Shown here piece by piece: positions 24,959-63,924 of a stretch of DNA of 64,000 nucleotides. Position numbers and translations under genes: made by a program. Where the stretch lies: NCBI RefSeq assembly GCF_008016455.1, contig NZ_SAXU01000001.1, positions 1,612,001 to 1,676,000 on the forward strand, read 5' to 3'. The first letter of the stretch is position 1, and each line of letters opens with the position of its first letter. The notes below the pieces were generated by a model, which was given only the letters and a program-made list of their open reading frames with translations, was not told where the DNA came from and searched no databases. The stretch comes from Brachyspira aalborgi. Its GTDB lineage: Bacteria > Spirochaetota > Brachyspiria > Brachyspirales > Brachyspiraceae.

Positions 24959-24986
24959 TTGACAAATTTTTTTAAAATGTTATAAT
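24959..24986 (+). promoter_or_regulatory. Sigma70-type promoter of pentamer locus A
   Basis: TTGACA (24959-24964), 16-base spacer, TATAAT (24981-24986). The same context (ATGCTTGACA...AAATGTTATAATTT) recurs at 56577, which suggests a shared promoter module. Confidence 0.8.
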
Positions 24987-25034
24987 TTGCATACAATTTA
25001 ATAAATAGCCGAAGGAAAGAATTTCGGTTTAAGG

Positions 25035-25109
25035 ATGTTTAACTTGAATAATCTAGAACAGAACAGAACAGAACAGAACAGAACGCTATTATTATCTTCT
25101 AAACAATAA
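25035..25109 (+). CDS. Short ORF reading through the (AGAAC)6 array, locus A (out of frame)
   Basis: From ATG 25035 (or TTG 25044, better spaced from the AAGG at 25031) translation enters the pentamer array, giving EQNRT repeats, and stops at TAA 25107 after 24 codons. With one more AGAAC unit (or two fewer) the frame would instead continue without a stop to TAA 25276-25278, giving about 82 residues with LNFYILQISKAF and a hydrophobic and basic tail. That longer stop codon overlaps the ribosome-binding site of the lipoprotein gene (ATG 25289). A hairpin CCGAA/TTCGG (25009-25027) precedes the start. Coding status is inferred from frame openness and from the similar loci at 56.6 and 63.9 kb. 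Confidence 0.5.
   Translation: MFNLNNLEQNRTEQNRTLLLSSKQ
25055..25084 (+). repeat. Pentanucleotide array (AGAAC)6
   Basis: Six perfect AGAAC units. Loss or gain of a unit moves the downstream frame; the frame open for 63 codons after the array is reached with seven or four units. Confidence 0.97.
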
Positions 25110-25288
25110 TTTAAATTTCTATATATTACAAATTTCAAAAGCGTTTAAATTTTTAAGCGCTTCAATTTTATTGCAAAAATTTTTATCAAATAAAAAACTA
25201 ATATTTGAATTATCTCAATTCAATCAAAATTTTAATTTCGCAAGAAACATTTATTTAAATGTTTTTAATAAAAATTAAGGAGTGTAGT

Positions 25289-25879
25289 ATGAAACTACTA
25301 AAAAAAATTACAATCTTATTATGCTTTTTGTCTTTGATAGCTTTCGTAAGCTGTAGCGCCGAAGATAAAAGCGGAGTAAAAGAAAAGGACAATGCCGATG
25401 GAACTGAAATTACAGGCGGCGGAAAAAGTGGAAATTCTGGAACGGGTGGAAGCGCTGGAACAGGTGAAGGCTCTGGAACGGGCGGCGGAACTGAAACTAC
25501 CGAAACTGGAAATTTTCCTCCACCTGCGGGAACATATAGAGACGATAATGTTTGGAATACATGGCATGATACTAGTGACGATACTAAAGTTTCTAAACTC
25601 GATGAAAATACTACTAGGATAACAGGAAGGTCTAAAATAACAAGTGGCAATGGCGGTGGGCAAGCATTTGGTTTTGATATTTCAAAATGGAAGAAAACAA
25701 TCAAAGATGGAAAAGAATCTAAATATGAGGCAGTCGATATAGTAGTCGAAACAGGTTATAATTTTACAGATATTAGTATAGTTTATTATTACGATTCTTC
25801 AACTTTAGAAATAACTTTTAAAAGTAAAAGTAGTAGTGTAGACGACTGCTTATTTAAAGGAACTAAAATATCCGAATAA
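25289..25879 (+). CDS. Surface lipoprotein with Gly/Thr-rich linker
   Basis: A 196-residue lipoprotein. Signal peptide KLLKKITILLCFLSLIAFVSC ends in a lipobox with Cys as the probable acylated residue. A low-complexity linker rich in Gly, Ser, Thr and Glu follows (about residues 40-85), then a compact beta-rich domain to the end. The linker is unusual in this AT-rich genome and would let the domain extend from the membrane. The start ATG has TAAGGAG nine bases upstream, whose TAA is the stop of the long ON-state form of the locus A leader ORF, so expression may depend on the pentamer count. Function unknown. Confidence 0.75.
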   Translation: MKLLKKITILLCFLSLIAFVSCSAEDKSGVKEKDNADGTEITGGGKSGNSGTGGSAGTGEGSGTGGGTETTETGNFPPPAGTYRDDNVWNTWHDTSDDTKVSKLDENTTRITGRSKITSGNGGGQAFGFDISKWKKTIKDGKESKYEAVDIVVETGYNFTDISIVYYYDSSTLEITFKSKSSSVDDCLFKGTKISE

Positions 25880-55983: not shown

Positions 55984-56472
<489 letters not shown>

Positions 56473-56505: not shown

Positions 56506-56541
56506 AATCCGTAGGAGTTTTTAATCTCTTACGGATTTTTT
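56506..56541 (+). terminator. Terminator of the V-ATPase operon
   Basis: AATCCGTA (56506-56513) pairs with TACGGATT (56530-56537), with GGAG/CTCT inside, followed by TTTTTTAT. Confidence 0.85.
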
Positions 56542-56576: not shown

Positions 56577-56605
56577 TTGACATTTATTTTTAAAAATGTT
56601 ATAAT
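56577..56605 (+). promoter_or_regulatory. Sigma70-type promoter of pentamer locus B
   Basis: TTGACA (56577-56582), 17 bases, TATAAT (56600-56605), perfect consensus. An ATG begins at 56613, about where transcription would start, so the message may be leaderless. Confidence 0.8.
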
Positions 56606-56612
56606 TTCAATC

Positions 56613-56687
56613 ATGAAAGTAAATGGTGATAATATAAACAATAAATTCTGCAGCAGCTCAGCTCAGCTCAGCTCAGTATCACTTTAA
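56613..56687 (+). CDS. Short ORF reading through the (CAGCT)4 array, locus B (out of frame)
   Basis: From ATG 56613 the frame enters the pentamer array and stops at TAA 56685 after 24 codons. If one pentamer were lost (or two gained), the frame would continue to TAA 56845 with LNFFQVYVYLLIIK and further hydrophobic residues, about 76 residues in all. A second frame, reached by gain of one unit, is also open, but the LNFF frame matches locus C. Upstream of the array is KFC, as in locus C. Product inferred, not demonstrated. Confidence 0.45.
   Translation: MKVNGDNINNKFCSSSAQLSSVSL
56654..56676 (+). repeat. Pentanucleotide array (CAGCT)4 plus CAG
   Basis: Four perfect CAGCT units and a partial fifth. 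It sits at the same place relative to start codon and downstream LNFF frame as the arrays at 25055 and 63846. Confidence 0.95.
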
Positions 56688-56908
56688 ACTTTTTTCAAGT
56701 TTATGTTTACTTATTAATTATAAAAACTATTATATTTATTTTGAGTTCATATTTAATAAAATCGTTTATTCAATTAAATGTTTTTATTCACATTTTTATA
56801 TACAAAATATTTTTGGGAAAAATAAAAACAAGTATCACTGTATAATACTAGTTATATGTTATAATATAATTAAAAATAAATATTTAGCCGAAAGACGAAG
56901 GAGAAAAA

Positions 56909-57259
56909 ATGGAACAAAACAATGTTCAAGAACAAATTATTAAGAATAACGACAGTTCGGAAAAAAGCTGGATTGCATGCTTGTTGTTATGCATATTTTT
57001 AGGAGAGATTTACGGGCATAAATTTTATGTCGGCAGAGTAAAAGAGGCTTTGATTATGTGGGCGGTTCTTATAGTCTCTATTATCTTGGCTTTCGTTGGC
57101 ATGGGAACGGCGGTATTATCTTCCGCTTTGCTTGGATTTTTAGTTACGGGTTTGGGAATTGTAGGAATAAGTGCATATTGTCTCATAATAATTATAGATT
57201 TATTTGTTATACTCGTAGGAAAATTCAAAGACGCCGAAGGAAAATTTGTGACTAAATAA
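56909..57259 (+). CDS. TM2 domain membrane protein
   Basis: A 116-residue protein with the TM2 domain: W-I-A-C-L-L-L-C-I-F-L-G-E-I-Y-G-H-K-F-Y-V-G-R, two hydrophobic segments joined by a short turn, ending VGKFKDAEGKFV. An extra hydrophobic span (about 62-85) separates the two parts. The family's function in bacteria is unknown. It has AAGGAG six bases before the ATG. It is downstream of pentamer locus B and followed 14 bases later by a nuclease-like gene, so it may be transcribed with it. Confidence 0.8.
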   Translation: MEQNNVQEQIIKNNDSSEKSWIACLLLCIFLGEIYGHKFYVGRVKEALIMWAVLIVSIILAFVGMGTAVLSSALLGFLVTGLGIVGISAYCLIIIIDLFVILVGKFKDAEGKFVTK

Positions 57260-57273
57260 TAAAGGATATAATT

Positions 57274-58353
57274 ATGGATAAAAAATTAGATAAATTTCTT
57301 TCGGAATATTCAAATATTGAATTTTCTAAAGTAAATAAAAATATTTTTGAAATATCGGGTTTTCCACATTACGAAACGGTTTTTAATAATGTTTTAGCTT
57401 TCTTTTTAGATAGTTCGGAAAGTCATAATTTTAAAAATATAGTTTATAAAAGTTTATTGGAATTGCTTAAATCTAAATCCGATAAAATAGATTTATACGA
57501 TGAAGAAACTTGGGAAGTAAACAGAGAAGAAAGCACGGACAATGGAAAACTTATAGATATTTTAATAAAAAGTGAAAATTACATTATAGGAATTGAAACT
57601 AAAATAAACGCTTCGCTCACTAACGATATAGACGATTATTATAATCATATAGAAAAAATAAAAGAAAACGGACAGAAACCTATTTTTGTAATTTTAAGCA
57701 AAAAATCTATTGATGAAAATAGAAAAAATATTTTTAATATTACTCATAAAGAATTAAAATCTATATTGGAAAAGAATATAAATCTTAATGATAATAATAA
57801 ATACGCTTATTTGTTAAAAGATTTTTTAGAGAATATGAATAATTTTTACGGAGGTTCGACAATGAACAAAGAATTTATAGAGCTTTTAAAAGACGAGGAA
57901 AAAGCGGAAAAAATAAAAGACATATATTTTAATGTATATGAAGTCAGAAAAGAATTAGAAAGGAATGCAAGAGAATTGAAAAACGAATTAAATGCAAATC
58001 CTAAAATTTTTAAATCTTCAAGAATAATTAAGCCTAATTGGACTATAAATATATGTATTGAATTATCTAAATATTTTTATAATGAATGTGAATTTGTTAT
58101 AGAAATTTATATTGGGGTTAATGATAGTTATGAAGTATTTATATATTTTAGGAAAAATAGCAAAGTTTTAAAATTTGATGAAAAATTAGATAAATTCATG
58201 AAAGATATAACGGCTAATTTTTATAAAAATTTTGAATTAAGTAAAGGCGAATACGATGAATTGATGGCAAATTTGAATAAAGAAAAATTATTTGAATTAG
58301 TAAAATGCATAGAGGAAAATTGCTCTAAATTAAAATCAAAAAATAATATTTAA
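57274..58353 (+). CDS. PD-(D/E)XK nuclease superfamily protein
   Basis: A 359-residue protein with the N-terminal pattern FEISGFPHYETVFNNVLAFFLDSSESHNF found in the PDDEXK_4 (PF14281-like) family, then the core D-I-L-I at residues 93-96 and IGIETKI near 102-108, giving a D-x-n-E-x-K site. This fold cuts DNA in defence and repair proteins. It is 14 bases downstream of the TM2 gene in the accessory region. A defensive role is only inferred from its fold and location. Confidence 0.8.
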   Translation: MDKKLDKFLSEYSNIEFSKVNKNIFEISGFPHYETVFNNVLAFFLDSSESHNFKNIVYKSLLELLKSKSDKIDLYDEETWEVNREESTDNGKLIDILIKSENYIIGIETKINASLTNDIDDYYNHIEKIKENGQKPIFVILSKKSIDENRKNIFNITHKELKSILEKNINLNDNNKYAYLLKDFLENMNNFYGGSTMNKEFIELLKDEEKAEKIKDIYFNVYEVRKELERNARELKNELNANPKIFKSSRIIKPNWTINICIELSKYFYNECEFVIEIYIGVNDSYEVFIYFRKNSKVLKFDEKLDKFMKDITANFYKNFELSKGEYDELMANLNKEKLFELVKCIEENCSKLKSKNNI

Positions 58354-63768: not shown

Positions 63769-63924
63769 CTAAAAATTCCATAATAAGTTGTCTATTAATG
63801 CCTTAAGAAGTATTAAATATATATAATTGAAAAAGTTTAAAATAATATTGTATTGTATTGTATTGTATTGTATTGTATTGTTGCAGAAGCTCAATAAAGT
63901 TTTAATTAAAATGTTTTCAAACAT
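63769..63924 (-). CDS. Small hydrophobic protein, pentamer locus C (in frame)
   Basis: A 51-codon ORF from ATG 63924 to TAG 63769. Residues 1-14 MFENILIKTLLSFC, then a translated (CAATA)7 array (NNTIQYNTIQYN), then IILNFFNYIYLILLKAL, a likely membrane span. The array keeps the frame open, so this locus is ON as sequenced. It has the same architecture as the loci at 25035 and 56613. It is co-oriented with and 78 bases upstream of the SDR gene. Function unknown. Confidence 0.5.
   Translation of the reverse strand: MFENILIKTLLSFCNNTIQYNTIQYNIILNFFNYIYLILLKALIDNLLWNF
63846..63880 (-). repeat. Pentanucleotide array (CAATA)7
   Basis: Seven perfect units (TATTG on the plus strand). Its change in number would shift the frame of the ORF at 63769-63924. 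Confidence 0.97.

Follow-up and report, generated by a model that had tools for sequence, protein, structure and literature searches.

In trp-type ribosome-mediated attenuation, a short leader-peptide ORF precedes a terminator hairpin, and amino-acid supply acts as the switch. SSR contingency loci, such as lic, mod and hsdM of Haemophilus influenzae and opa of Neisseria, are switched by changes in the number of repeat units. H. influenzae also has pentanucleotide tracts (PMC2651432). In Escherichia coli, uORFs that begin with a 5'-terminal AUG can alter the expression of the downstream cistron (PMC4965119), and stop/start overlaps of the ATGA type are treated as a signature of translational coupling (PMC3711429). 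Here we analysed a window of 64,000 nucleotides from Brachyspira aalborgi (contig NZ_SAXU01000001.1, positions 1,612,001 to 1,676,000), in which one locus, denoted locus B, can be compared with each of these systems. Like the SSR contingency loci, it carries a non-triplet repeat whose unit number sets the frame, and like the E. coli uORFs (PMC4965119), it has a predicted 5'-terminal AUG, followed by a gene with its own Shine-Dalgarno (SD) sequence. We consider it likely that such a phase-variable leader ORF gates the gene behind it via translational coupling. The features of locus B are as follows, in window coordinates.

56577..56605, + strand: promoter P1, TTGACA-17-TATAAT with TG ahead of the -10 element, 12/12 consensus match
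56613..56687, + strand: leader ORF as currently phased, 24 codons and a stop codon, predicted to be leaderless
56654..56676, + strand: (CAGCT)4.6 array with no stops in any frame, the presumed hypermutable switch
56677..56845, + strand: post-array "LNFF" frame, entered after loss of one unit, ending 64 nt short of TM2
56677..56943, + strand: post-array "FKLF" (FKLFSSLCLL) frame, entered after gain of one unit
56832..56865, + strand: probable second promoter with a palindromic operator, GTATCACTGTATAATAC then TGTTATAAT, recurring before other genes
56909..57259, + strand: TM2-domain gene, 116 aa, strong Shine-Dalgarno (PF05154, E=2.7e-08)
57274..58353, + strand: PD-(D/E)XK nuclease-family gene (PF14281, E=5.2e-18; PDC-S26, E=2.7e-51)

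P1 consists of TTGACA (56577-56582), a 17-nt spacer and TATAAT (56600-56605), and is indeed the perfect promoter described in the initial annotation. Three perfect TTGACA-17-TATAAT sites were found in the window, compared with 0.06 expected from shuffles. The leader ATG at 56613 lies 7 nt 3' of the -10 element, about where transcription had been expected to begin, and in many related loci the ATG likewise lies 6-10 nt past the -10. This spacing suggests that the AUG forms the 5' end of the transcript, and a leaderless mRNA is therefore predicted at locus B. A terminator-like hairpin (56506-56537) was observed between the upstream gene (56005-56472) and P1, so that locus B is probably a separate transcription unit.

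Translation from the leader ATG gives MKVNGDNINNKFCSSSAQLSSVSL and ends at the stop codon 56685-56687, where the initial annotation had placed it. The array, previously read as (CAGCT)4, extends over 4.6 units, and its 13-nt pattern had 0.00 matches expected by chance. Its unit length is not a multiple of three, and the array is placed so that unit number sets the reading frame. Behind it, two frames are open as had been noted, LNFF to 56842 (TAA at 56843-56845) and FKLF to 56940, beyond position 56909 where TM2 begins. Loss of one unit, earlier proposed to switch on a 76-residue membrane peptide, would give 75 residues.

The TM2 gene and the PD-(D/E)XK gene behind it form the downstream operon. 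The second gene is similar to the model of PDC-S26, a candidate phage-defence system, and is itself a candidate for phage defence. It should be noted that locus B is a weaker and less clean example of the gene-reaching geometry described below. The FKLF frame ends 32 nt inside TM2 rather than in an exact ATGA overlap, LNFF stops 64 nt before the gene, TM2 has a strong Shine-Dalgarno of its own, and the probable second promoter lies between leader and gene; these points weaken the case for coupling at this locus. The promoter-operator module GTATCAYTRTATRATAC...TGTTATAAT was also seen at L029, L030, L037, L092, L002 and L062. Behind it lie genes for TM2, for short CxxC-containing proteins and for others, a leader array being present or absent, and the set resembles a small regulon.

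A DNA search of the 349-bp locus B region against its own genome returned at least nine other full or partial copies with 72-95% identity. The copies share the promoter, the ATG, the array and a core beginning TTTAAACTTTTT, and they vary in unit number and some of them in the unit itself (CAGCT, CAGTT or AAGCC), with different genes behind. More arrays, with the units AGAAC, ACACT, AATAC and AAAGC, were found near promoter-like matches. Altogether, at least about 41 pentanucleotide arrays in the 2.5 Mb of the own genome and 26 in relatives gave 67 distinct loci, a catalogue that was drawn from few homology searches and is thus a lower bound. Their common layout is a near-consensus promoter followed by a short leader ORF holding the array. 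In other Brachyspira species, ATCGC and ACCGC arrays occupy the equivalent position. In B. catarrhinii, the nearest relative searched, draft contigs often end inside the shared core, as expected of a multicopy repeat. The window has three GC-containing pentamer arrays, all of this class, and the two besides locus B are as follows.

24959..25289, + strand: promoter, leader ATG at 25035 and (AGAAC)6 at 25055-25084, with an open frame that stops 13 nt short of a lipoprotein gene
63769..63924, - strand: 51-codon leader ORF with (ACAAT)7.2 at 63846-63881, now in an LNFF-like frame

In the latter, the gene is reached by neither of the long frames. AGAAC and AAAGC leaders before lipoprotein genes (25055-25084; L113, L099, L114-L118) have the 3' leader segment KAFKFLSASILLQKFL in common. 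Locus B is thus probably one copy of a genus-wide phase-switch cassette and not a one-off.

Unit number varies between close relatives, which is a mark of SSR contingency loci. Among the TM2-leader orthologues of other Brachyspira, two genomes whose leader flanks are 99.5% identical carry 16 and 4 units, and a third genome carries 14 (flank identity over the three, 98.4-99.5%), in a comparison that spans genomes of different species and draft assemblies in which arrays can be shortened. Paralogous CAGCT copies, dispersed ahead of unrelated genes, have 2-8 units. The anatomy of the leaders, their multiplicity, their frame geometry and the variation of unit number between genomes are direct observations.

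The frame geometry was examined in the 50 of 67 loci with a gene 60-280 nt downstream (46 after de-duplication), and a post-array frame was counted as reaching the gene when it came within 30 nt of the downstream start or passed it. Some frame did so in 44 of the 50 loci, the six exceptions including the locus at 63846. After de-duplication, 40 of 46 loci had a leader frame that ended on or near the downstream start or entered the gene, compared with 7.6 (sd 2.0) in dinucleotide shuffles. Exact ATGA overlaps were found in 12 of the 46 (2.0 expected from shuffles) and in-frame continuation or fusion into the gene in seven (0.3 expected). The initial annotation had considered long openness in two frames unusual for AT-rich DNA, and this is borne out for the class, since gene-reaching frames are rare in shuffled spacers. 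An early post-array stop was also considered as a selected trait and was dropped, as it occurred in 44.1 of 46 shuffled loci compared with 46 observed.

The dispersed sequence could instead be a neutral repeat, with an array and open frames that arose as by-products of duplication and of its AT-rich composition. Clear homology extends over as much as 349 bp of the copies, which are therefore not independent. Because family members are related, we resampled a single locus per group from 20 groups with unrelated spacers, built on shared 16-mers since shared 10-mers merged nearly all loci. On average 15.8 of the 20 reached the gene compared with 3.5 in shuffles, and no more than 7 did so in any of 1000 shuffles. 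In length-matched natural intergenic DNA from the window the rate was 32%, compared with 88% of leader loci. Unrelated spacer groups and other species thus show the same geometry far beyond both controls, and different repeat units sit at the same position, which makes a neutral origin very improbable. The comparisons with shuffles and with intergenic DNA also support coupling between leader and gene for the class as a whole.

In the assemblies used, only seven of the 46 loci are currently in a gene-reaching phase, compared with 17.3 expected (P=3e-4), suggesting that most would be off in these assemblies. This deficit, the six loci in which no frame reaches the gene and the frame ends of the B. 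catarrhinii TM2 leader (below) count against the coupling model. L077 (= L034) is now in the gene-reaching phase, with leader and lipoprotein joined in one reading frame (232 codons).

We then asked which post-array frame matters. Within the locus B family, whose frames were assigned by hand from core sequences, it is usually FKLF that meets the gene, either in an ATGA overlap (L086, L088) or in frame (L077, L079, L104), and LNFF ends 7-90 nt before the gene. In the TM2-orthologous leader of B. catarrhinii, the frames end 43 and 90 nt ahead of TM2. Since FKLF is the usual gene-reaching frame, coupling to TM2 at locus B should follow from gain of a unit and not from loss.

The initial annotation had instead regarded the array as the switch of a peptide, and the product itself might matter, for example as a small, hydrophobic and toxin-like LNFF membrane peptide. 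In the family-1 copies, LNFF is an open, hydrophobic frame; it also stays open in the direct TM2 orthologue of B. catarrhinii and is vaguely resembled at 63846. However, stops fall within the LNFF-type frame of the sister AAAGC leaders, the kind of relatives that the annotation had named as evidence against its reading, and the C-terminal parts vary from copy to copy. No excess of variable sites at third codon positions was detected in either frame, nor any amino-acid-level constraint on the LNFF peptide, in the 33-nt family core (a small sample), and a profile search for LNFF gave no convincing match beyond two close species. The small-membrane-protein reading was rejected on the missing codon-position bias, and a selected LNFF product now appears improbable. 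The array as a frame switch in an ORF that looks translated and is probably leaderless, as the annotation had it, is supported, but LNFF as its product did not hold up. Given that the frame meeting the gene is FKLF, that third-position excess is missing and that AAAGC leaders carry stops in the LNFF-type frame, passage of ribosomes is, in this small sample, the likelier selected property than the peptide. What the switch controls is most likely the gene behind the leader.

We infer leaderless initiation, coupling and on/off expression from these sequences, and the switch would work as follows. Transcription would start at or beside the leader ATG, and ribosomes would enter the short leader ORF and cross the pentanucleotide array. 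Replication slippage would shift the unit number by one and with it the exit frame of ribosomes crossing the array. One phase would halt them at once after the array. In another (at locus B, FKLF after gain of one unit), they would arrive at the start of the downstream gene and either initiate again or continue, so that the gene is turned on, which at locus B means the TM2 and PD-(D/E)XK operon. The remaining phase (LNFF, after loss of one unit) would stop short of the gene and may yield little or intermediate expression. Extended to the genus, we lean towards a modular and possibly three-state switch, in which unrelated genes are gated by translational coupling to a separate leader ORF, leaderless or SD-led, that holds a hypermutable pentamer, the cassette having been copied from gene to gene.

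Alternatively, the leader could act as a ribosome-controlled transcription attenuator, in which an early stop leads to termination before the gene and passage leads to readthrough, with coupling secondary. In ACACT leaders, a GC hairpin and T-run lie at most 31 nt from the array (CGCCGCATTATAAATTTTTTCGGCG-ATTTTTTC), and terminator-like sites occur in 16 of 50 spacers compared with 1.9 expected. However, most of these 16 belong to one homologous family, and such a site is missing from the leader-to-gene spacer of locus B and from those of most of its family. The fold of the locus B leader RNA was unremarkable (z=-1.03), and RNA structure was rejected as a feature of this locus. Attenuation would also leave the exact ATGA overlaps unexplained, and we regard it as unlikely to be the main mechanism. 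Under translational coupling, the hairpin of the ACACT family may add attenuation.

The genes behind the leaders (surface polysaccharide, lipoproteins, candidate defence) are typical of contingency targets, and the SSR contingency loci likewise act on surface and restriction or defence functions. L029 lies before another PDC-S26 gene, L086 and L088 before dynamin-like or other GTPases, and AACAG and AAAGC leaders mostly before lipoprotein genes. The ACACT/AATAC leaders (L094, L123-L133, L097, L100, L136) lie before surface-polysaccharide or glycan-type genes, with the terminator-like hairpin directly after the array. Several leaders (L030, L073, L029) are followed by short proteins that repeat a YCxYC motif and were assigned to no family.

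If correct, the model would allow the contingency genes of a poorly tractable genus of gut spirochaetes (surface glycans, lipoproteins, candidate phage defence) to be listed, and their predicted state to be read from unit counts in any long-read genome. It would also represent a plug-in type of phase switch that leaves the controlled protein unchanged. In the open-access literature searched, no description was found of phase variation by repeats in Brachyspira or of repeat-switched coupling via a separate leader ORF. SSR switches, coupling signatures and 5'-terminal AUG uORFs are each known, and no reusable cassette combining them was found in that literature.

Compared with trp-type attenuation, the ACACT family is alike in having a short leader ORF before a terminator-like hairpin, whereas the Brachyspira leaders would be switched by DNA slippage and locus B has no terminator. 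The E. coli uORFs (PMC4965119) are not described as repeat-bearing or phase-variable, unlike the Brachyspira leaders. As in translationally coupled pairs, a leader frame of the class can stop on or next to the downstream start. However, phase variation and coupling are treated as separate classes (PMC3711429), whereas in Brachyspira a hypermutable array would decide whether the coupling frame is used. Finally, the array of SSR contingency loci lies in the switched gene or its promoter region, whereas that of Brachyspira lies in a separate leader ORF that is reused before many unrelated genes.
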